A stretch of 64,000 nt of DNA from Gammaproteobacteria bacterium (GTDB lineage: Bacteria > Pseudomonadota > Gammaproteobacteria > Steroidobacterales > Steroidobacteraceae): positions 62,001 to 126,000 of the forward strand of contig JAJPKM010000044.1 in the NCBI GenBank assembly GCA_021323735.1, read 5' to 3'. The translations under genes were made by a program, and so were the position numbers. Within the stretch, counting starts at the first letter, position 1, and each line of letters opens with the position of its first letter. This document shows, piece after piece, positions 48,396 through 60,518 of this stretch. Under the pieces are notes generated by a model. It was not told the origin of the DNA. It did not search any database and was given only the letters and a program-made list of their open reading frames with translations.

Positions 48396-49442
48396 TCAGA
48401 TGGGACGCTCGGATTTCTTGTTGAGCTCGGAGCAGAATGCCATTACGGCCGCTGAGCCGAAATACTCCCGAAACAGTGTCACATAGTGCTGGCGTCGGTG
48501 TGCCGAAAGGGTTTCGGGTCGGCACCCGAAGAAGCCCGCGGTTTGCGCACGAGTCGCGATCTTACGACTGACAATGTATGACGCACAGACGGCGCGAATC
48601 ATGGGCAGCGGGCGCTTTCGCGAATGAGAGCACAGATGATCGAGTGTCACGGTGCGTTTCCAGGCCCGCGCTTGGCGAGCTATCAGCTCTTTATCGCACA
48701 TGGCATCGAATTGCCGAACTACGTCCAGTACCGCGTCCCGAACCGCATTGCCGTGGGCTGCTACTCGTTCCCGACGCGGCGGCTGTTGACGGGTGGCGTT
48801 CCATTGCTCCTCCCTGAACTCTCTATCGCCTAACATGCGAGGGTCCTCGGGTGACCCGTGCGCGAAAAGCCATACATGTTCGGGATCCGGCGCTTTGTCG
48901 AAGCGCTCACGATAGGTGTGCTGTTGCAGTTCACGGCGACGTGCACCGCCGGACAAGATGCGAAATACGGCGTGAGTGATGAGCCCTCGCTGCCGCAAGT
49001 GTCCACGGTATACAGCGTCGCTATTCCACGAGTGCTCTGCTTCGCCGGATTGCGGTGGTCGAAGCTTAGGAATCCAGTGGATGAAATGAACGACGGGCAC
49101 GAGCCACCGTCGTGGTTGAATCAACAGGATATGAGCATGTGATCGAAACAGGCCGCCACTCTCACCGTGCGCACGGTTGAATCGTCGAGCGTACTCATGG
49201 CAGAGGTTACGCACAATGGCGCTAACGGGTGCAACGCCACTTCGAATCGCGAGATGCACTTCACTCTTTGCAACGTACCCACCATGCAACTCCGCGCCCT
49301 TTTTGTGAAGCGTCACGCGCATGACCTCTAGGAACATCCGTATATCCGCGGCACCAGTGATAAGGCGACGCCCATGCTCAGCGCGCAGCGCGATGTAGTA
49401 CGACCCGTAGGGGATGGGTGGTAATCGCTTTAGCCGGGGCAT
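48396..49442 (-). CDS. REP-associated tyrosine transposase (RAYT, IS200-like Y1 family), possibly inactive
   Basis: 348 residues from the ATG at 49442, six bases after AGGAGG. Y1-transposase fold (PIPYGSYYIALRAEHGRRLITGAADIRMFLEVMRVTLHKKGAELHGGYVAKSEVHLAIR), with the Tyr-containing helix VRNLCHEYARRFNRAHGESGGLFRSHAHILLI, and a C-terminal DnaA-like helix-turn-helix (about 270-330). The usual MPNHxHLL metal motif here reads KSEVHLAI, so the first His of the HUH pair is Glu. It marks the left edge of the accessory island. No flanking terminal repeats are obvious. Confidence 0.8.
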   Translation of the reverse strand: MPRLKRLPPIPYGSYYIALRAEHGRRLITGAADIRMFLEVMRVTLHKKGAELHGGYVAKSEVHLAIRSGVAPVSAIVRNLCHEYARRFNRAHGESGGLFRSHAHILLIQPRRWLVPVVHFIHWIPKLRPPQSGEAEHSWNSDAVYRGHLRQRGLITHAVFRILSGGARRRELQQHTYRERFDKAPDPEHVWLFAHGSPEDPRMLGDREFREEQWNATRQQPPRRERVAAHGNAVRDAVLDVVRQFDAMCDKELIARQARAWKRTVTLDHLCSHSRKRPLPMIRAVCASYIVSRKIATRAQTAGFFGCRPETLSAHRRQHYVTLFREYFGSAAVMAFCSELNKKSERPI

Positions 49443-50002
49443 TCGCATCCTCCTTGCGTACTGCCTGAATATCGATCACGGCAGTGATTCCATCTCGTCT
49501 GCGCGTCGACTATAAGTGCTGGCGAACAGTCCCGGCAATACCCGGCAGTTATGCATGTTTTGCAGTGTCGGGTAGAACTGCTTTCATGATGTGTCGCTGA
49601 ATGGACTTGCCGGTTGTTTCATCGATGCGGTGTCGGACAGCAGCCACCGCAGATAAGAATGCGAACGCGTTCTACTGGTGGTCATAAAATGACCATCGCG
49701 GTCGCCGCGTCATTTCAATTCCACCAAAGGCGCAGCTGCAAAGCGATCTGTAATTTCGCGATTGAGCCGTAACAACACATGGCAAGCACGATTTCTGCCG
49801 CAATTGCATGCATTCATCGGCCCCCAACATTGGGGATTTCCCTCATGCGGTCGTACAGCGTTTTCCCTGCAGTGCCACACCCCGGAAAATTACAGACCCA
49901 CACGAATTGAAATATCGCGTTGACAAAGCGATCGGGGCATAGTCAGGTTTGTCGTGCCAATTGGCGAACTCACCGAACATCAACTTAATTCAGGAGATTG
50001 AC
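49443..50002. other. Intergenic region upstream of the lasso peptide operon
   Basis: 560 bp without a supportable gene; no second precursor peptide is seen. GC is lower than in the flanks. A perfect TTGACA at 49920-49925 sits about 78 bases before the precursor start, but its -10 partner is weak (CAGGTT at 18-bp spacing), so the promoter is only tentative. AGGAG at 49992-49996 is the precursor's ribosome site. Confidence 0.5.
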
Positions 50003-50146
50003 ATGGAGCAGGTAAAAATTGATGAGGCCGAGCGAGTGTTGAATGAAGCATCGACGCTCGTTGATATGGGGCGCGTCTCGGAGGAAACAAAGGGAATCGT
50101 CGGTCTGGAGTTCGAGGGGCCAATGCCCACCGGCTTACCCCTCTAA
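50003..50146 (+). CDS. Lasso peptide precursor
   Basis: 47 residues from the ATG at 50003, AGGAG six bases upstream. Leader residues 1-30 carry LVDMGRVSEETK: a Leu-x3-Gly-x5-Thr-x pattern with Thr29 at the penultimate leader position, which lasso proteases need. The predicted core (50093-50143) is GIVGLEFEGPMPTGLPL: Gly1 would bond to Glu8 to give an eight-residue ring and a nine-residue tail. Glu6 would give an unprecedentedly small ring. The tail has no aromatic or Arg plug residue, only Met and Leu. The maturation genes follow directly downstream. The identity is firm from context; the core is not one I recognise. Confidence 0.88.
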   Translation: MEQVKIDEAERVLNEASTLVDMGRVSEETKGIVGLEFEGPMPTGLPL

Positions 50147-50166
50147 GTAAGCTAGCGGTGCATCTT

Positions 50167-50193
50167 GCGGCGCACCACATTCTGGTGCGCCGC
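50167..50193 (+). promoter_or_regulatory. Perfect stem-loop between lasso precursor and B gene
   Basis: Arms GCGGCGCACCA and TGGTGCGCCGC pair over 11 bp around the loop CATTC, 20 bases after the precursor stop and 37 bases before the B start. No U-tract follows, so it is probably not a full terminator. In proteobacterial lasso operons a hairpin at this place is known and is thought to keep precursor transcript in excess over the enzymes by stabilising its 3' end or attenuating read-through. Confidence 0.85.
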
Positions 50194-50230
50194 TCCTCGA
50201 AAACGAAAATTACTAATTCCGGTTCGGATC

Positions 50231-50950
50231 ATGCAATCCCGCGACTATTTCCTTCGAAGCCACATTTTCTTCTGTCTAACAGAGACATTCTGCTTCATTT
50301 TGGACTTGAAAATGGATCGGTATCTGAGTCTCGATTCACGCAGTTTCAAGTCACTCGGGCCTCACCTCCACGGATGGCCAGCTAAAGCTTTCGGCACTTC
50401 TGCAGGCTCAGAGTTGGCCCCCGCCGCAGCTAGTCTCGCTGCGGAACTAGTCGCCGCGGGAATACTCGGCATGGACCGCAATGACTCCAAGGAGGCGCGA
50501 CCAACTACGTGGCGGCTACCAACACATACGCTGCTCGACCGACCAGAACACGCATCTGCGTTGTATTGCACATCTATCTTCGCAAACTTCCTCAAGGCAA
50601 CTACGAGAGTCAATCGGCAATTGCGGGAGTCGTCATTGGAGTCAATTATTGGTTCGATCGCGAAACGAAGGGAGGCTTATGCAAGAGTTGTTCAGGCGTT
50701 CGACCGTGATTGTGCCAAATTGACGAGTGCATTCAGCAAGCTAAGGCCTGTATTCCCCAGAAACTACTTATGCCTTTTTGATTCAATAGCGCTCATTGAA
50801 TTTCTCTCCCAATACAGAATCTTCCCCACATTGGTATTTGGAGTTAGACCTGAGCCGTTCGGCGCTCATTGCTGGGTGCAAATGGCAGACATGGTCTTAA
50901 ACGACACCGTTGAGTACGCAAGTGCGTTCACTCCGATAATGGCGATCTAG
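50231..50950 (+). CDS. Lasso peptide maturation protein B (fused B1 recognition element and B2 cysteine protease)
   Basis: 239 residues from the ATG at 50231; ribosome site weak. The first 80 residues are the PqqD-like leader-recognition domain (YFLRSHIFFCLTETFCFILDLKMDRYLSLD). Residues 100-239 are the transglutaminase-like protease with catalytic Cys181 (RNYLCLFDSIALIEFL), His213 (PFGAHCWVQM) and Asp225 (VLNDTVEYASAFTPIMAI). It removes the leader so that the core N-terminus can be cyclised. Base composition is lower in GC than the core genes around the island. It ends 18 bp before the cyclase gene. Confidence 0.93.
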   Translation: MQSRDYFLRSHIFFCLTETFCFILDLKMDRYLSLDSRSFKSLGPHLHGWPAKAFGTSAGSELAPAAASLAAELVAAGILGMDRNDSKEARPTTWRLPTHTLLDRPEHASALYCTSIFANFLKATTRVNRQLRESSLESIIGSIAKRREAYARVVQAFDRDCAKLTSAFSKLRPVFPRNYLCLFDSIALIEFLSQYRIFPTLVFGVRPEPFGAHCWVQMADMVLNDTVEYASAFTPIMAI

Positions 50951-50968
50951 CTTCGAGACAGAAAGTCC

Positions 50969-52819
50969 ATGTACCGTTACGTTGGCCTTCTTTGGGACCC
51001 GCACACCGTCGGTGCGCCCCAAGTGGCCGCGGCATTCAGTTCGCAACTCGACCATACGACGGGCTGGGTCCGTAGGCTCAACCTGCCGGGCATGATCGTC
51101 TTTGATCGAGCGACGCAGAGGGAAGGAATGCACACATACCTTCTGCCCGGAGACAGCGGTGTCGTCCTTGGCAGACTGTTTCCGCTCAAGCTTGACGAGT
51201 GGACACCAACATGGCGTGCAGCCATTGGCTTGGCGGAAGCGCGCAAGATGGCCTCGACCGGTGGTCGCACCTTAGTAGAGAACTACTGGGGAAGTTACGT
51301 CGCGTTCCTCAACAACGCAGATGACAAGCGCCGGCACGCTATCAGGGACTGCTCGGGAAAGATTCCCTGTTACAGAACCAGAATCAATGAGGTCGAAATA
51401 ATCTTCGCGGACGTTGGAGATATTGACCATCTAGACATTCTCCGCTTTACCGTCAACTGGGGCTATGTCGCGGCGTTTATGTCGTCGAGTGAACTACAGA
51501 TTAGAGAGACAGGTCTCAACGAAGTAACTGAGCTATTGGCAGGGGAGTCCTTCACCGACGACTCGAACGCCCGACGACAAATTTCGCTCTGGGATCCTAA
51601 AATATTTTGCGCGGAGCCAATCGAGGATGGGCTAGAAGCAGCAGGCCGGTTGCTGCATACAACACAGCAGTGCATTAGCGCATGGGCGTCAATCTATGAA
51701 AATATACTTCACGGCCTCTCAGGCGGATTCGACTCCGCAGTAGTACTCGGCTGTTTGTTGAGAGCGCCAATCCGACCCGAAATCACCTGCCTAAATCGCT
51801 TTAGCAGCGATGCGCAAGGAGATGAACGGAACTTCGCCAGAATTGCCGCAGCCAAAGCACGCGTGAAACTGCTCGAACAGCCTTGGAATGCGAGCAAGCG
51901 ACTGCTCGGCGACTGCCTGCCGAACGCAACAAAAATGTTAAAGCCCACCATTCCGGCCTTCGTTGGAATTCCCATTCTGGACGGTAGAAACGAAGTGGCC
52001 AGACAGGTTGACGCGCACGTTTATTGGACCGGCGAGGGGGGCGATCATCTCTTCTTTCAAATGAAATCTTTGCTTGGAGCGGCGGACTACGTGCAATGTC
52101 ATGGCATGAGTCGGCGATTGCCGAGGATCGTCGGAGACGCCGCTCGCCTCACGAAAGTGTCTTACTGGCATGCGCTGCGCGCGGCATTGGTGTTGGGTCG
52201 GTCCGAATTGCCGTGGAGCCCAGGAGAGAGAGCACGCAGTACTGCCGGATTCCTAAGTATTGGTGCACTAGAGGTCGCCACCTGTACCACTAATCCGTGG
52301 GTGGAAAACCCCGAAGGGATTTCGAAGGGTAAGCAGCTACAAATTCACTATCTTTCAGAGCTTCTAAACCGCGGACGTCCGCTTCCCGGTGTTGAATATG
52401 CCCCAGAGCACCATCCCCTGTTATCGCAGCCCCTTATGGAGCTCTGTCTGCGAATCCCTGTATATCTTTTGGTACAAGGCGGACGATCGCGCGGCCTAGC
52501 CAGGTGTGCGTTCCGACATACTGTGCCTTCAGAGATCATTAATCGCGAAACCAAGGGAACATCCACGGAATACATTCTAGAATTGCTGCACCGAAGCCGC
52601 GATAACATATCGGGACTACTTTTGGATGGGGTTCTAATGCGACAAGGTATTCTCAGTCGGAAAGCATTGGAGCCATGTGTCTTCCGCCGTCAACCTTTGC
52701 GTACCGAACAGTTGACCCCGCTGTTGGCATGCGTTGCGGCGGAGGTTTGGGTACGTAGTTGGTCGGATTCCATACGCCGAGCGGCAGTTGGTGACGATTG
52801 CGGGCAGTCGCAGGCGTGA
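50969..52819 (+). CDS. Lasso peptide macrolactam synthetase (asparagine-synthetase-like protein C)
   Basis: 616 residues, the usual size. An N-terminal glutaminase-like fold without the catalytic Cys1 is followed by the ATP-pyrophosphatase loop SGGFDS at 251-256 (ILHGLSGGFDSAVVLGCLL), DAQGDERNFARIAAAKARVKL and VYWTGEGGDHLFFQMKS. It adenylates the Glu8 side chain of the core and joins it to Gly1 to close the ring around the threaded tail. Operon order A-B-C; it ends 22 bp from the stop of the convergent isopeptidase gene. Confidence 0.93.
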   Translation: MYRYVGLLWDPHTVGAPQVAAAFSSQLDHTTGWVRRLNLPGMIVFDRATQREGMHTYLLPGDSGVVLGRLFPLKLDEWTPTWRAAIGLAEARKMASTGGRTLVENYWGSYVAFLNNADDKRRHAIRDCSGKIPCYRTRINEVEIIFADVGDIDHLDILRFTVNWGYVAAFMSSSELQIRETGLNEVTELLAGESFTDDSNARRQISLWDPKIFCAEPIEDGLEAAGRLLHTTQQCISAWASIYENILHGLSGGFDSAVVLGCLLRAPIRPEITCLNRFSSDAQGDERNFARIAAAKARVKLLEQPWNASKRLLGDCLPNATKMLKPTIPAFVGIPILDGRNEVARQVDAHVYWTGEGGDHLFFQMKSLLGAADYVQCHGMSRRLPRIVGDAARLTKVSYWHALRAALVLGRSELPWSPGERARSTAGFLSIGALEVATCTTNPWVENPEGISKGKQLQIHYLSELLNRGRPLPGVEYAPEHHPLLSQPLMELCLRIPVYLLVQGGRSRGLARCAFRHTVPSEIINRETKGTSTEYILELLHRSRDNISGLLLDGVLMRQGILSRKALEPCVFRRQPLRTEQLTPLLACVAAEVWVRSWSDSIRRAAVGDDCGQSQA

Positions 52820-52841: not shown

Positions 52842-55106
52842 TTAGTGCGGACGCCCTGCAACTACTACTTGCCAATCTTTTGACATCTGATCCCAGCGGA
52901 TATATTCCGCGCTCTTATGGGGATCGGCGTCGCGCCTACCAACGAGCCAAAAGTCGAACCAGTCGAGGTTTTGTGTCATGGCGGCTTCACGATGGCGTGG
53001 CTGCCAAAATACGTGCGCCTCCGAAGGGTAGACAAAGAGCTCCGTCGGCACTTGTGCGTCCTTTAGCAGTTGGTCCATTTCCAACGCATCTTTTGCGGCA
53101 ACCAGTGTGAACTGCTGCAGGAGAGGGCCTGCGAAGCTCCGGGCCCGAGCTGATGGAGAAAACGCCAAATAGTTCGGGTAGACGTTTGGATCGAATACCG
53201 TTCCGCCGAACAAGTTCTTGTAGACATTGCGAAAGAACGCGGGTCCCCCCCAGAAGCCACCGGCGTCCCACCAAGTGGCATCTGCGCTGGAAGCGGCCGA
53301 AAAGGACGAAGAGTGGCTCATAGCGAACCTGGCAATCGTAGCCCCCCTGCTGTATCCAGCAATTCCAACCATGGAGGATTCCACGTCGCCACTCTTAACT
53401 AGCGCTGAAACCGCGGCTTCCATGCTCGCCAGAGGGTTGTAAGCTTCCTCAAATTGCTGCCGAGCGATGTCAACATCCTCCGCGCCGGGGTTATAAGGCC
53501 GCGGCACGTCACGATTATGCTGGGGCTCGTTTACTGATAACACGAAGTAACCGCGCTCCGCGAAGACCTGTATTGGAAACTCCCATTGGAAGCCGTCGTC
53601 GGCGAATCGGTTTCTCGCGTCTCTGGCGTGCGTGACAACAATTGCCGGATATTTGGTGCCGGCCACGTAGTGGCGCGGGTAGGTGATATAGCCTGTATTC
53701 GAAAAGCCAAAGCGATTGACCCAGCGTGCCGCGACAGTACGAAGGGGAGCCACTTCGTCGTATTTTGCGTTCGGCCGGGCTATGACAGTTACTTTCCTGT
53801 TCGTCAGAGTGACAGCTATTAGCCGTGGAGCAAGTGTTAACGTCTCTTGACTGCAGGCGCCAAAACTCAAGTCAGAGTTGAATGCGCAAGCGCTTAAATG
53901 TGAGTGAGCTGTCTCCAGCTCGGTCCAGTTTGACGTCGGCGAAGCGCTCATTAGCCCATCATGATCGTCAAAGCTGGCCGCCAGAACTAGGCGGCTGCTG
54001 CGCTCATTTCGCCACACGCCAAGCTGTGCACCAATATGCTCAGCGCCGATCCGACCGTAGTCCCTCACAACTCGCCCATCCAAGTCTATGTTGGAAAGAC
54101 GACGTTCTGCACCGACCGTCTTCACGGTAAGCGCTCCCTCCGGCGTCGGCACCGAATAATAGATTTGTTCTGGAGAGTCCATCGCTAGCCGTTGCAGCTG
54201 CCCCGTAAGAACGTCAAACCGCCACAGAGAGAGTCTTTGATGTTTGCCGACAAGCCCGCGTAACCTGTATTGAATGTGTGTGGAGTCAACCCAACGAGCG
54301 CTTCCTGCCCGGCGCCGAAAAGCCTCAGAATTTTCTAGCACGTCGGTCGGAGCGAATGCGATCATACGATCGACATCCGCGCTCGGACTTAAAACGTGAA
54401 GCTCCGTGCCCAACAATTGTACGGAACGCTCGGTGTCTTGAATGCTGGCACCTAGCATTGCGGCATCGTCGTAGCGAACTCCCTGGTCAAGCAATGCCTG
54501 CTGTTCGGAGCCAGAGCGAATGCGCAGGCGCGAGTACCAAAGCTTGCTGCCATCGGGTGCCCATTCATAGGAGAGGATGCCGGTCTTTCTTGGCTCCTCG
54601 AAAGAACTCACGACCAGGCCCTCGGATCCACCGACAACGGCAGTAGCCTCGCTTGAAATAAGACGCGCAACGTGGCCGTTTTCAGCCACGTCATATAGCT
54701 GAACGCCGTCTCCGAAATCTGCGCGCACCGTCCAATTGTGAGTACCGGGATGCCAACTAAGATCGTCGAGAAAATCGGCCTCCAACAGCTTTGCGGGAGA
54801 GTTTGGATGACGCAGATCCACAACATACAAGCCAAAGTGATTCCTGCCATCCACAATAGAGGGCTGTTTCAGTATGAATGCCGTAACGTTCGTCGCACCC
54901 CTAATGGCGATACTGGAGATCCGAGTAACTTCGACGATGTCGGTGGCGGTCCACAATCTGCGCCACTGATTGTCAGTGCTTGAGTGGGGTACGTTCGGCA
55001 ACGTATCGGCAAATCCCGCGGTCCAATACAACGATCCGGCTGCTAGCAGAATGGACAAGGACATTGTGACTCGCGCTGGAGCAGTGCGCCTCTTCGAGGT
55101 GCTCAC
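52842..55106 (-). CDS. Lasso peptide isopeptidase (S9 prolyl-oligopeptidase family, AtxE-like)
   Basis: 754 residues from the GTG at 55106, overlapping the receptor stop (GTGA). Signal peptide, then a beta-propeller-like N-terminal half and an alpha/beta-hydrolase C-terminal half with Ser586 in GIAGYSRGATIARF, an Asp at 673 or 678 (AAKDALEMD) and His698 (SEAHVFWQPRHREAAM). AtxE-type enzymes cut the isopeptide bond of their own lasso peptide, turning it linear. Position next to a lasso A-B-C operon and coupling to a TonB receptor make this assignment strong. Expected location periplasm or cytoplasm, depending on signal-peptide use. Confidence 0.88.
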   Translation of the reverse strand: MSTSKRRTAPARVTMSLSILLAAGSLYWTAGFADTLPNVPHSSTDNQWRRLWTATDIVEVTRISSIAIRGATNVTAFILKQPSIVDGRNHFGLYVVDLRHPNSPAKLLEADFLDDLSWHPGTHNWTVRADFGDGVQLYDVAENGHVARLISSEATAVVGGSEGLVVSSFEEPRKTGILSYEWAPDGSKLWYSRLRIRSGSEQQALLDQGVRYDDAAMLGASIQDTERSVQLLGTELHVLSPSADVDRMIAFAPTDVLENSEAFRRRAGSARWVDSTHIQYRLRGLVGKHQRLSLWRFDVLTGQLQRLAMDSPEQIYYSVPTPEGALTVKTVGAERRLSNIDLDGRVVRDYGRIGAEHIGAQLGVWRNERSSRLVLAASFDDHDGLMSASPTSNWTELETAHSHLSACAFNSDLSFGACSQETLTLAPRLIAVTLTNRKVTVIARPNAKYDEVAPLRTVAARWVNRFGFSNTGYITYPRHYVAGTKYPAIVVTHARDARNRFADDGFQWEFPIQVFAERGYFVLSVNEPQHNRDVPRPYNPGAEDVDIARQQFEEAYNPLASMEAAVSALVKSGDVESSMVGIAGYSRGATIARFAMSHSSSFSAASSADATWWDAGGFWGGPAFFRNVYKNLFGGTVFDPNVYPNYLAFSPSARARSFAGPLLQQFTLVAAKDALEMDQLLKDAQVPTELFVYPSEAHVFWQPRHREAAMTQNLDWFDFWLVGRRDADPHKSAEYIRWDQMSKDWQVVVAGRPH

Positions 55107-57757
55107 CAGTCCTTCCTCAGCGTCAGGGAAACGAAACGCCCCAGCGGCGACGCATTGGTCGAGTCAAAGCCAATGGCGCGAGGGAACGTGCTGTTTGCTC
55201 TGAGCGCGGGTGGGTTGCGATTGAGTATATTTTGCGATGCCACACTGATTCCAATTCCGTGAAAGAATCCGCCCCAATTGGACGTGTCATACTTGATCTG
55301 CGCGTCCATCGTCGTCCACGAAGCAACATCAACTGGCAGTGAAGAGTTCGTATTGTCCGTTTCCCTACTAACGTAGTTGAGGAACGAGGCTGTTGACCAT
55401 GCGTCGCGCTGCCATGTTATGCCGAGTCTCGATCTGAGCTTGGGTGGGTAGAAGACGGTGCCGCTGATGGTCTCCTCTGGAGAAGTTGGAGTAAGCATCT
55501 GAGCGAGAGTGAGCCAGGTCGCGCTGACCGACAGGTCGAGATTGCCAGAGAACGCACGCAAGCCGTAGTGGCCACTGAAATCCACTCCGTGAGCCTGCTG
55601 TGCGGTCGTATTCTGGTACTGACCTGCGATTAGTGCGATGGCCTTTTGTGGATCGTAGGCGCTCCCAGTGAAGTTATAAATGAGAGTGTCTGGCGCGTTA
55701 AATATTGCGGACTGGAGCGACGCGCTGGGGTTACGAGTCACAAAGGGAGCATAGGCGGGGTTCGAGAGCGATGCGGTGAAATTGGCAATGGGCAGCGTGA
55801 TGCGATTTCGATAGTCAATATTGTAGTACGTCAGACTGGCGTGCAATGTGGGTGCCCAGTCTGGCTTGTAGTCGAAACCGGCCGTCCATGAGCGCGCCGT
55901 CTCAGGATTTAGGAATGGGTTTCCGCCCGATTGAAAAAGAGCCTCCGCTCCGACCGGGTACGTACCGAAAAATGAGGCGGGATAAATGGCTAGTTCGCGT
56001 CGCGAGTATTCGGTTGCTAAATCAGGTGCCCTGAATGCCTTTCCCCAAGAACCTCTCACACTGAGATCGCGGGTCGGCGCATAAAGAATCCCTATTTTTG
56101 GCGATGTATTCGTGCCGAAGTCGCTGTAGTCCTCATGTCGTCCGGAAACCGATAGTTCGAGCCGTTCAAGGCCGAGCCTGTCGATATTGGCGTGGACCAT
56201 TGGTATTCGTAATTCCGCGAATTCGTAGTCGAGGTGGCGTTGCGCAATCGTGCCGCCACTATCATGGTAGCTCTCGCTTCGATATCCAGTGCCTAGCGCG
56301 GCCTGGATCGGACCTGATGGTAATGCGAAGAGTGTACCAGTCGTATTTGCTTCGACTGATGATGTGCGGTTGGCATAGTAGTAGCTCAACGCCGCTGGAG
56401 CGCCGGCAAGCGTGTAGTAAACTGTGCCAGAATCTTTTCCGCTCGACAATGTGCCGTCAAGTGATGCTGTCCAGGTTTTGGCGAGTTCGATCGTGGCCCC
56501 ACTCGACACTGAAAATATTGTCGTGCTAACCGGAGAAAAGTCGGGTCCCGCTACATTCGTAATTACCTCGGACTTCCTGTTCGAATATAGCCCTTCCACG
56601 TATGTGGAAACGTTGTCGGACACGTTCTGGTGTGCGTTAGCGAACACCGAACTCCTATTTTGACTTGGGAGAAGCGTCTCGGGATTAAGTGCAGATGAGG
56701 AGAATGAGCGCTCTGATGTTAGTAGATTGTTTTGATCGTAAAATTCGTAGCTGACCATGGCATTGCCACTGCCCCATTTGGTGCCCAGTAATTGACTCGC
56801 CTCCCGTTCAGTCGCTCCGCCATTGCTGGTGCCTCCGAAGTGTGCACTGGTCTCCACACCCTCATAGTTTCTTTTAAGAATGAAGTTGGCCACACCCGCG
56901 ACTGCGTCGGATCCGTAAACGGACGACGCTGAATCCGTTAGGATCTCGACGCGCTCAATCGCCGCCAGCGGGATGGCGGATATGTCGAAAGAACTCGTGA
57001 ATCCGTCGACGGCGAGGCGGTGCCCATCGATCAGAGTCAAAGTCGAATCGGATCCCAGTCCGCGAAGATTTACTGTCGATGAAGCTGAAACGTTTTGGGA
57101 GGTAACGACATTCGCCGTACCGACAACGCCTGGATTAATGCCTCCCCCGAAGGACTCCGGAATACTTCGGATGACGTCTCCAATGGTCGAGTAGCCCGAG
57201 TTTGAAATGTCAGTACCGCTCACGATATGGAGAGGCGAACCGACCGGCACAGCGCCGGTGATGTGGGTCCCGGTGACGACAATCTCCTCGAGATCTCTGT
57301 TCTCGGCGGTCGGCGATGGCGGGTTGTCATTTGAATTCCCAGCGGTTGCGGCAGCCTGCGACGGCTTCTCGTCGCTGGACTCGGTTGCTGAAGATGTTTT
57401 GGCCCACAGGAGTTTCCTCTCTCGAGAGTCGGCCGTGGAGGCATCTGCGGCGGCGATCACAATCGTGTGGTCGTCCAGGTGCTTCGGCCGCAATCCTGTT
57501 CCGGCGAGCACGCGCGTGAGCGCGCCGTCCACCGTGAGATCTGCCTTGAGTGGTGGTGCCAGAAGGCCCTCGACCTGACTCGCTCTGAAGCCCACATCGG
57601 TATTTGTCGCCGCTCCAATCGCCACAAGCGATTGCGCCAGGGGTTGGGCGGGTAAGTCGAAGTGAACAAGGTTCTGAGCTCCAGCCGCGGCGCACCACAA
57701 TGCCGCCGCCATGAAAATCGTCAATGTAGAGCGAACCCGACAAAAGGTTCTACGCAT
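55103..57757 (-). CDS. TonB-dependent receptor with N-terminal signalling (STN) domain
   Basis: 884 residues, GGGAGGT before the ATG. Signal peptide (1-27), STN domain at about 30-100 (VHFDLPAQPLAQSLVAIGAATNTDVGFRASQVEGLLAPPLKADLTVDGALTRVLAGTGLRPKH), TonB-box-like DLEEIVVTGTHI, plug domain (VESILTDSASSVYGSDAVAGVANFILKR type motif), and a 22-strand barrel ending in LGRFVSLTLRKDW. The STN domain implies transmembrane signalling to an anti-sigma factor, and a fecR/fecI pair lies 0.9 kb away. In lasso loci it is thought to import the lasso peptide, perhaps loaded with a ligand. Confidence 0.93.
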   Translation of the reverse strand: MRRTFCRVRSTLTIFMAAALWCAAAGAQNLVHFDLPAQPLAQSLVAIGAATNTDVGFRASQVEGLLAPPLKADLTVDGALTRVLAGTGLRPKHLDDHTIVIAAADASTADSRERKLLWAKTSSATESSDEKPSQAAATAGNSNDNPPSPTAENRDLEEIVVTGTHITGAVPVGSPLHIVSGTDISNSGYSTIGDVIRSIPESFGGGINPGVVGTANVVTSQNVSASSTVNLRGLGSDSTLTLIDGHRLAVDGFTSSFDISAIPLAAIERVEILTDSASSVYGSDAVAGVANFILKRNYEGVETSAHFGGTSNGGATEREASQLLGTKWGSGNAMVSYEFYDQNNLLTSERSFSSSALNPETLLPSQNRSSVFANAHQNVSDNVSTYVEGLYSNRKSEVITNVAGPDFSPVSTTIFSVSSGATIELAKTWTASLDGTLSSGKDSGTVYYTLAGAPAALSYYYANRTSSVEANTTGTLFALPSGPIQAALGTGYRSESYHDSGGTIAQRHLDYEFAELRIPMVHANIDRLGLERLELSVSGRHEDYSDFGTNTSPKIGILYAPTRDLSVRGSWGKAFRAPDLATEYSRRELAIYPASFFGTYPVGAEALFQSGGNPFLNPETARSWTAGFDYKPDWAPTLHASLTYYNIDYRNRITLPIANFTASLSNPAYAPFVTRNPSASLQSAIFNAPDTLIYNFTGSAYDPQKAIALIAGQYQNTTAQQAHGVDFSGHYGLRAFSGNLDLSVSATWLTLAQMLTPTSPEETISGTVFYPPKLRSRLGITWQRDAWSTASFLNYVSRETDNTNSSLPVDVASWTTMDAQIKYDTSNWGGFFHGIGISVASQNILNRNPPALRANSTFPRAIGFDSTNASPLGRFVSLTLRKDW

Positions 57758-57938
57758 CGTGACCTCCCGTTATCCGCGCAGTGCGCCGCGCTCGTTAATT
57801 TGCTTCCCTACGGGCAGAGGACGAATCAGCAAAAGTAATCAGAAGCTACAAGATCATTTTCTTGCGGCCGCAACTTCTGATGTGGATTCGGCGATAAACG
57901 AACTTTTGGTGCCGGTCACGGATGAGCCGGGCGGGGTG

Positions 57939-58124
57939 TTACTTCAATCGTGCTGGGAGCCGCTCGTGTCGAATACGCTCGTAGACTTCTTCGCGATGAA
58001 CGGCGATGTCCTTGGGTGCGTCGATTCCGATGCGTATCTGGCTGTCCTTCACGCCGATGATCGCGACGGTAATGGTGTCGCCGATCATCACCGTCTCACC
58101 CACTCTTCTCGTCAGTATCAGCAT
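57939..58124 (-). CDS. csrA: CsrA/RsmA-family RNA-binding regulator
   Basis: 61 residues with AAGGA upstream. [51 protein letters not shown] is a complete CsrA with the RNA-contact residues at both edges (LTRRVGE and the [10 protein letters not shown] Arg). It sits inside the lasso island between receptor and XRE genes, away from the usual alaS/recX context, so it is probably an accessory copy. It may act post-transcriptionally on island mRNAs; the precursor ribosome site CAGGAGA contains an A-x-GGA core. Confidence 0.92.
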
Positions 58125-58229
58125 GGCTGGTCCTTAGCGCTGTTGAGGAACCGAGAATCCCTATCGTGAGAATCGGGACATTCAGGGGAACAATGGCCCT
58201 TTGCCGGCATTTGCCAGCAATGCCACCCA

Positions 58230-58282
58230 ATACTAAGAAAGTCTGAGTATTCAGTCAACGCCAAAGCTAAGAGTCTCTGAGC
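58230..58282. promoter_or_regulatory. Two-site operator array upstream of XRE gene 1
   Basis: Two imperfect inverted repeats with centres 34 bp apart: ATACTAAGA-N3-TCTGAGTAT (58230-58250) and GCTAAGA-N3-TCTGAGC (58266-58282). The second ends 19 bp before the ATG. The same pair, same centre distance and a shared GTCAACGC spacer occur before XRE gene 2 (60136-60189). Consensus CTAAGA-N3-TCTnAG. A natural target for the paralogous repressors themselves. Confidence 0.75.
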
Positions 58283-58301
58283 CTATCGGAAAGGGGCGCA
58301 G

Positions 58302-58607
58302 ATGGCTGGGATTTCTATTGTTGCAAAGCACCTTAAGGCGGCGCGGCTGCGCGCGGGCCTATCCCAGAAGCAGCTTGGCATCAAGGCGGGGATCGATGAG
58401 TTTTCCGCCAGCGCACGCATCAACCAGTACGAGCGCGGGAAGCATATGCCGGATCTTTTGACGCTGACGCGCCTGGCCGCTGTAATGCATGTGCCCGCCC
58501 CGTATTTCTATTGCGAGGATGAGGAACTCGCTGGCGTCATTCTCAAGTTTGCAGCCTTGGGGAAGGCGCAACGAAGACGGTTGCTCGGTTCACTGGACGA
58601 GCTATAG
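58302..58607 (+). CDS. XRE-family helix-turn-helix regulator (copy 1)
   Basis: 101 residues. HTH_3 domain at about 6-65 (KHLKAARLRAGLSQKQLGIKAGIDEFSASARINQYERGKHMPDLLTLTRLAAVMHVPAPYFYCEDEELAGVILKF). A close paralogue lies at 60210. It is convergent with fecR, 9 bp apart. The operator array directly upstream suggests autoregulation and cross-regulation with copy 2; csrA reads away on the other side, so both may share the control region. Confidence 0.9.
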   Translation: MAGISIVAKHLKAARLRAGLSQKQLGIKAGIDEFSASARINQYERGKHMPDLLTLTRLAAVMHVPAPYFYCEDEELAGVILKFAALGKAQRRRLLGSLDEL

Positions 58608-58616
58608 ACCCTGCGC

Positions 58617-59612
58617 TCATTGGGCCGTCGGCGGGGGGAGCGTTGGGGGTCGGGACAGTACGATGTCGGCCCCGGTTCGTTCAGCCCGCAGTCCAAAGGT
58701 CGCCGTCACAATTTTCACGAATTCGGCGGAGTCGCCGGCACGAAATACTCCGCCGATGCGCAGCCGGGCAACCTCGGTATCCGGAATAACCAGGCGGGTG
58801 GTCGTGTAGCGATTCATCTCGGTGGCTGCATCCTCGAGGGCCGTCGCGTCGAACTCCACCCGGCCGCGCTCCCACGCGGTCACGCGGCTCAATTCGGGGC
58901 GATCCACGGCCGGTGCATGATGTTGCGAAATGATCAGCCTTTGACCGGGAACCAGGACTTGCGGAGCTTGGTGCTGTTCCGTGCCATTCTCGGGAACAGG
59001 GGCGACACTGATCTGTCCGTCGACCAGCGTGATCGACAAGTCCTGATCATTGTCATGGCGCACGATGAAAGAGGTGCCCAGGGCGCGGATCTCTTGGTCG
59101 CCTACGCTGACGAGGAAGGGCCAGGTTGGGCGCTTGGAGACGTCGAACCGGGCCTCCCCGCGTACCAGCCGCACGCGGCGTGCATGTTCGTCATAGTCCA
59201 CTTCGATGCGGGTGTCCGTGTTCAACGAGACACGCGTGCCGTCCCGTAGCACCCGGACTCGTTGTTGCCCAACAGCGGTTGTAAAGGCGTTGTCGCGCCA
59301 GTAGAGCGACGCGATGACCACCAGCGCCAGCGCAGCAGCGGCCGCGGCCATCCAAGGAGAAAATAGCGACCGTCCGCTCCGGGTAGCCGAGACATCGGCC
59401 TGCGCGCGCATCCGAATACTGCCCGCTTGCTCCCAGACCTGTGTCATGCGCTTGAACGCGCGCTGGTGTTCGGTGCTCCTGCCAAGCCACTCCTTAAGCT
59501 CCGCTTCCACATGGGGATCACGCTGTGTGTCGCGCAGCCGCGCCATCCAGGTGGCTGCTTCGACACGTACCTCTTCGGACATGACGGAATCGTTCTGCCG
59601 GGTCAGGCTCAT
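58617..59612 (-). CDS. fecR: FecR-family anti-sigma factor
   Basis: 331 residues from the ATG at 59612, overlapping the sigma-factor stop (ATGA). N-terminal cytoplasmic anti-sigma region (AATWMARLRDTQRDPHVEAELKEWLGRSTEHQRAFKRMTQVWEQAG), one membrane helix (about 90-108, AAAAAALALVVIASLYW), and a periplasmic FecR domain (RVRVLRDGTRVSLNTDTRIEVDYDEHARRVRLVRGEARFDVSKRPTWPFLV). It would relay occupancy of the STN receptor to the sigma factor. Some lasso loci carry fecIR in this way. Confidence 0.92.
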   Translation of the reverse strand: MSLTRQNDSVMSEEVRVEAATWMARLRDTQRDPHVEAELKEWLGRSTEHQRAFKRMTQVWEQAGSIRMRAQADVSATRSGRSLFSPWMAAAAAALALVVIASLYWRDNAFTTAVGQQRVRVLRDGTRVSLNTDTRIEVDYDEHARRVRLVRGEARFDVSKRPTWPFLVSVGDQEIRALGTSFIVRHDNDQDLSITLVDGQISVAPVPENGTEQHQAPQVLVPGQRLIISQHHAPAVDRPELSRVTAWERGRVEFDATALEDAATEMNRYTTTRLVIPDTEVARLRIGGVFRAGDSAEFVKIVTATFGLRAERTGADIVLSRPPTLPPPTAQ

Positions 59613-60127
59613 CCGCGTAACAGCTCGTTGTCGATGAGTATCAGGGCTTTCGCGATATGGTTCGTGACCGCCCGGGTGGAAATGTTAAACCGTTGTGCGA
59701 TTTCTGCGCAGCTCATTCCATCGAAGCGGTGCAACAAAAAGGCTTCTCGCGTCCGGGGGCTGGCGGCGGCAAGGCTTCGTTCGACGCGCTCGATCAACTC
59801 GTGAGCCTCGGCCACCTGCTCAGGCAAACTTGCCGTATCCACGCAGTCGACCTCCTCGATGGGCTGCTCCGAGAAAATACGCCGGGTGAGGGTGGCCCGA
59901 CGCAGGCGGTCGATGTGCACTTTCTCCACGACATCCACGAGAAATGCGACCCGATCGCGTACCGGCGTCTTCTGCTCCTGTTCGTACAGGCAGAGCCGTA
60001 GACATCCTTCCTGAATCAGGTCGTCCAGATCCGCGCCCCGCGATCGCCCGCGTTGGATCAGGCGGCGGCGCAGCGATACAAGCTGCCCCAAGAGTCCGCT
60101 GCCTAGGTCCTTCGTCCTTGCGTTCAT
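59609..60127 (-). CDS. fecI: ECF sigma factor (FecI-like)
   Basis: 172 residues. Sigma-70 region 2 (LDDLIQEGCLRLCLYEQEQKTPVRDRVAFLVDVVEKVHIDRLRRATLTRR) and region 4 helix-turn-helix (LAAASPRTREAFLLHRFDGMSCAEIAQRFNISTRAVTNHIAKALILIDNEL). Paired with the overlapping fecR. Likely regulon is the receptor-isopeptidase operon and perhaps the peptide operon. Its own start is 9 bp from the palindromic site shared with XRE gene 2, so the XRE proteins may repress it. Confidence 0.92.
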   Translation of the reverse strand: MNARTKDLGSGLLGQLVSLRRRLIQRGRSRGADLDDLIQEGCLRLCLYEQEQKTPVRDRVAFLVDVVEKVHIDRLRRATLTRRIFSEQPIEEVDCVDTASLPEQVAEAHELIERVERSLAAASPRTREAFLLHRFDGMSCAEIAQRFNISTRAVTNHIAKALILIDNELLRG

Positions 60128-60209: not shown

Positions 60210-60518
60210 ATGGGTCGGATGTCGATCCTCGCGAAACGTCTGGCGGAGGCGCGCAAGCGCGCTGGCATATCATCCCAGCGGGAGCTCGGCGTCATGGCGG
60301 GATTGCATATATCCGGTGCCGACGTTCGCATGTTCTACTACGAGGCGGGCCAGAATCAGCCCAAATTATCGCTTATGAAGCGTATAGCTGCCGAGCTGCA
60401 CACGCCTCTCCCGTATTTTTATTGTGAGGACGACGTCCTTGCGAACCTCATCCTCAAGTTTGGAACTTTAGACGAGGCGCAAAAGAAGAAGTTGCTCGAC
60501 TTCGTGGACACGCTATAG
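60210..60518 (+). CDS. XRE-family helix-turn-helix regulator (copy 2)
   Basis: 102 residues, clear paralogue of the 58302 gene along its whole length (MSILAKRLAEARKRAGISSQRELGVMAGLHISGADVRMFYYEAGQNQPKLSLMKRIAAELHTPLPYFYCEDDVLANLILKFGTLDEAQKKKLLDFVDTL). The ATG at 60210 is chosen because it aligns with the copy 1 start. It is divergent from fecI over a palindromic operator array and forms the right end of the island. Confidence 0.9.
   Translation: MGRMSILAKRLAEARKRAGISSQRELGVMAGLHISGADVRMFYYEAGQNQPKLSLMKRIAAELHTPLPYFYCEDDVLANLILKFGTLDEAQKKKLLDFVDTL

Follow-up and report, generated by a model that had tools for sequence, protein, structure and literature searches.

What does the small gene at the head of a lasso peptide operon in a Steroidobacteraceae bacterium encode, and what becomes of its product once made? 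The question is raised by positions 50003-52819 of a 64-kb stretch of contig JAJPKM010000044.1 (hereafter the window), part of a 4.19-Mb genome in 58 contigs. Gene content and comparison with related genomes suggest that the locus is, with high probability, an isopeptidase-type proteobacterial lasso cluster with a new core, the peptide of which would be re-imported and linearised. This kind of system is already known; what is new is the core sequence, which enlarges a little-explored group of lasso peptides, ones that are produced, retrieved by the cell, and hydrolysed. The biosynthetic genes, with A directly 5' of B and C, all lie on the plus strand:

50003-50146, plus strand: precursor A, 47 aa, an open reading frame (ORF) with a good Shine-Dalgarno sequence, CAGGAGATTGACATG
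50003-50092, plus strand: leader of A, 30 aa, MEQVKIDEAERVLNEASTLVDMGRVSEETK, its end matching the leaders of relatives
50093-50143, plus strand: core GIVGLEFEGPMPTGLPL with the predicted ring Gly1-Glu8, from the Thr-2/Gly1 rule and from Glu8 in most relatives
50231-50950, plus strand: B, an RRE (about residues 4-84) fused to a cysteine protease, from models, catalytic residues and a structure match
50969-52819, plus strand: C, lasso cyclase, Asn-synthetase-like, from models and the ATP-binding SGGFDS motif

An earlier note on this DNA had described a 47-residue precursor with an L-x3-G-x5-T-x leader end, a B1-B2 fusion protease with Cys181/His213/Asp225, and an SGGFDS cyclase following in order, and all of these are present, with B starting at the ATG at 50231 and the motif at residues 251-256 of C. 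Only one ORF with a precursor-type pattern was found in the window, namely A, compared with 0.3 per shuffled window, and this count, together with the place of A directly before B and C, led to the rejection of a chance ORF. A also showed the predicted T-K/G cut site, a small residue 1, and a Glu8 falling within the Asp/Glu 7-9 rule. B scored above the cut-offs of Pfam Transglut_core3 (PF13471, 64.8 bits, cut-off 26) and NCBIfam lasso_biosyn_B2 (NF033537, 66.4 bits, cut-off 33), and its residues C181, H213, and N224 were invariant across 12-16 relatives. In the AlphaFold model of B (pLDDT 89.6), the N-terminal domain best matched 6jx3 in the PDB, a lasso B1-leader complex (Z 6.9), and also 5v1u and 5v1v, while the C-terminal domain was papain-type protease-like; these Z values are middling, and the RRE matches represent the expected family. 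C matched PF00733 (Asn_synthase, 62.7 bits, cut-off 21), and its residues S251, G252, G253, D255, and S256 were invariant in nine homologues. The single PF13471 protein of the genome is the B of this locus, and no second lasso cluster was detected in the genome by C or by the B protease family.

Homologues of C were found in 53 of the 217 genomes of the family, with a best identity of 42%; sampling 369 genomes of the class at E 1e-80 revealed none closer outside the family. A scan of named genomes with the window's C alone gave no match; the alignment-based scan did give matches. Among the relatives' loci that were fetched, over twenty yielded a readable precursor, and comparison of at least 20 such precursors supported both the Lys/Gly cut site of the leader and the Gly1-Glu8 ring, the acid standing at position 8 in most cores, at 7 in four close relatives, and at 9 in same-genus loci. 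The ring is further supported because the core of locus L045 (GIVGQYPEGNLNFGAEQA, beginning GIVGQYPEG) also begins with GIVG and carries Glu8-Gly9, with no Glu6. That Glu6 forms the ring instead of Glu8, or that the cut site is shifted, is only a very remote prospect: Glu6 is indeed present in the core and four near relatives have the acid at 7, but Glu8 fits most relatives, the L045 core does without Glu6, and Thr-2/Gly1 is conserved. To our knowledge, six-residue rings have not been described for lasso peptides, which also counts against a Glu6 ring. As read from the sequence, the product is probably a class II lasso peptide with an 8-residue ring and an undescribed core. The core, called unfamiliar in the earlier note, occurs nowhere else among the sequences compared, and no paper on it was found in the open literature, RODEO/BAGEL lists lying outside that search.

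Residue 1 of the predicted core varies among the relatives, with Asp1 in L064 and L068, Gln1 in L065 and L070, His1 in L066, and Arg1 in the second cluster of L046, none of which is usual for ring closure. Metanodin (Asn1) was the sole case found among tested lasso peptides of the lineage with an unusual residue 1.

The tail, without an aromatic or basic residue, had been regarded as unusual, but such tails recur in relatives: aromatic residues are missing from those of L032, L034, L036, L037, L041, L042, and L048, and both aromatic and basic residues from those of L032, L034, L036, and L037. These recurring tails bear on the possibility that the product is branched-cyclic and unthreaded, the ring closing and the tail slipping out, to which we give a slim chance. 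Such slippage would suit a tail whose only bulky residues after Glu8 are Leu, Met, and Pro, and not every class II lasso peptide withstands heat (table in PMC7549694); against it stand the similar tails of the relatives and the intact isopeptidase gene kept at the locus, given that AtxE2 requires a threaded substrate (PMC9266682).

Nor is the 30-residue leader short, as had been claimed, since it is within the usual range of 20-40 residues (2026 review, PMC13352647) and exceeds the 12-17 aa found in most leaders of its clade; a phrase search of the literature on leader length returned nothing on point. Leaders of 12-17 residues, with a strong Shine-Dalgarno sequence before the start codon, were found in about eighteen relatives' loci. 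The leaders of the relatives end alike, Gly standing at -8 and Thr at -2, frequently as G-x-V-S-x-x-T-K, and the last 12-13 residues of the A leader (LVDMGRVSEETK) match whole leaders of relatives. The leader of A reads as this short module with an N-terminal extension. Leaders of 12-13 residues occur in L032, L036, L037, L038, L040-L042, L044, L045, L047, L048, and L062-L066, and some of these loci have no other in-frame start. Such natural leaders suggest a minimal leader for the clade. Overall, the earlier interpretation stood as regards the lasso operon, the cut site, the ring closed on Glu8, and a core without a counterpart in the searches made, and fell as regards the oddities of tail and leader.

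That interpretation also omitted a convergent gene set at 52842-60127 on the minus strand, which holds the uptake and hydrolysis half of the locus:

52842-55106, minus strand: lasso isopeptidase (AtxE2/SpI-IsoP-like) with a putative signal peptide, from matches to 5jrk and AtxE2
55103-57757, minus strand: TonB-dependent receptor with an STN domain, from family models
57939-58124, minus strand: CsrA paralogue, 61 aa (PF02599, 83.5 bits)
58617-59612, minus strand: FecR-type anti-sigma/signalling protein, the sole FecR of the genome
59609-60127, minus strand: FecI-like extracytoplasmic function (ECF) sigma factor, from a family model

The receptor and isopeptidase genes share 4 nt, the stop of the former running into the start of the latter. 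The isopeptidase matched its nearest solved relative, the sphingopyxin I isopeptidase (5jrk), over about 700 residues (46-745, E 1.6e-84), as well as AtxE2 (E 7e-32), and the triad Ser586/Glu676/His698 was kept. The locus has the TonB-dependent transporter and sigma/anti-sigma pair that belong to the isopeptidase type. Together with the genes for the isopeptidase and CsrA, they point to an isopeptidase-type proteobacterial cluster, the gene set of which has been reviewed (PMC9266682).

Several observations weigh against this assignment. The precursor scored below the curated NCBIfam and Pfam cut-offs (22.0 vs 33 for the benenodin model NF033522 and 22.6 vs 27 for the subterisin model PF24178, with E about 1e-4), and the acid is at position 7, not 8, in L031, L032, L033, and L035, which are among the closest relatives by C protein. 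The isopeptidase reached 204.9 bits, compared with the NF033523 equivalog cut-off of 400; judged by its sequence, it belongs to the same superfamily branch as AtxE2 and is not a strict AtxE2 equivalog. A GntR-type regulator before the precursor is almost constant in isopeptidase clusters (PMC9266682), and none was seen before A, the upstream ORF having no Pfam match and no other long ORF lying in 49450-50002. Finally, no exporter was found in the locus.

Two neighbouring features were also recorded. The 350-aa ORF 5' of A (48396-49448, minus strand), without a Pfam match, looks by eye like a REP-associated transposase. Near FecI/FecR, on the opposite strand, lie two similar small helix-turn-helix (HTH) genes (58302-58607 and 60210-60518, plus strand), for which no match was found in the relatives' lasso loci.

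Between A and B, the intergenic stretch folds with a minimum free energy (MFE) of -30.8 (z -3.25), and intergenic folding revealed the following element:

50167-50193, plus strand: A-B intergenic hairpin, 11-bp stem and 5-nt loop

A strong GC-rich hairpin directly 3' of the precursor stop was present in all 20 relatives examined, with differing sequences. Hairpin removal is among the changes listed for astexin-1 production (table in PMC7549694). The hairpin probably raises the output of A relative to that of B and C.

Taken together, the biosynthetic and uptake genes suggest the following course. A may be produced in larger amounts than B and C, aided by the hairpin, and the RRE of B would bind the C-terminal 12-13 leader residues while the protease would cut after Lys-1, one residue past Thr-2. 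By the chemistry of its family, C would activate the Glu8 side chain and join it to the amine of Gly1, giving an 8-residue ring and a 9-residue tail with a predicted [M+H]+ of 1708.898. The peptide would leave the cell; the STN-type TonB receptor would then capture it, carry it back in, and signal via FecR/FecI to raise its own operon, and the isopeptidase would open the re-imported peptide, in an uptake-and-release cycle as proposed for astexin and sphingopyxin clusters. A post-transcriptional layer of control may be added by CsrA. The same genes might instead serve a peptide that is mainly an antibacterial weapon entering rivals via TonB receptors, with the isopeptidase protecting the producer. 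This we consider unlikely, as no ABC exporter or immunity gene was found in the locus, peptides of isopeptidase clusters are mostly without antimicrobial activity (PMC9266682), and uptake by the producer itself is suggested by the TonB receptor and FecI/FecR of the cluster.

In this re-import cluster, CsrA is the only element off the usual isopeptidase-cluster map, at the window's locus and at many related ones. Of the 40 lasso loci fetched, 14 carry CsrA, with fifteen copies in all, compared with 0.29 expected from genome density, although these loci are related and the P value overstates their independence. The gene adjoins FecR in L040, L043, L048, L050, L052-L058, L063, L064, and L067. In genus g2, at least two CsrA genes were present in 28 of the 33 genomes that have a lasso C gene and in 4 of the 25 that have none (Fisher 1.6e-7; 1.4e-6 after size matching); in genus g21, most genomes show no such CsrA-lasso link, and some FecR-CsrA pairs lie on contigs without a detected C gene. 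The window's genome has seven CsrA genes, compared with the usual one in lasso-free relatives; only that at 57939-58124 lies near FecR, and the copy beside alaS (L095) is likely the housekeeping one. A role for CsrA as a general FecR companion was disfavoured because CsrA stays at one or two copies in relatives rich in FecR genes (42 FecR and 2 CsrA in G011, 5 and 1 in G004). Among the eight papers found to mention both CsrA and lasso peptides, none dealt, by title and abstract, with CsrA encoded in a lasso cluster. The simplest guess is that CsrA may switch synthesis or uptake at the post-transcriptional level. More tentatively, and somewhat short of an even chance, the locus could belong to a Steroidobacteraceae-lineage subtype with a CsrA paralogue dedicated to the cluster and coupled to FecR/FecI, which would govern lasso synthesis or uptake post-transcriptionally instead of the usual GntR. 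A CsrA gene travelling with these clusters offers a testable handle on the timing of peptide production; this association is worth following, as are, in relatives, the very short leaders and the atypical residues at core position 1.

Among known systems, the xanthomonins are likewise gammaproteobacterial and hold their threading without a large aromatic plug; they have a seven-residue ring and a core different from that of the window. The precursors of benenodin and subterisin partly match the leader end, and the core is barely or not matched. Metanodin (BGC 89), a lasso peptide from a Steroidobacteraceae-related metagenome contig (PMC12670498), comes from the same or a neighbouring bacterial family and shares the classical ABC order, a peptidase/isopeptidase gene in the cluster, and Thr-2, whereas its Asn1 closes on Asp rather than Gly1 on Glu8, and the cores are unrelated. 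The sphingopyxin I and astexin-2/-3 clusters resemble the window's locus in having A-B-C without an ABC exporter, an isopeptidase, a TonB receptor, a sigma/anti-sigma pair, and a class II peptide (predicted here). They differ in that the window's core is unrelated, no GntR gene was seen before its A, its isopeptidase-receptor set is convergent to A-B-C, and CsrA lies between FecR and the receptor.
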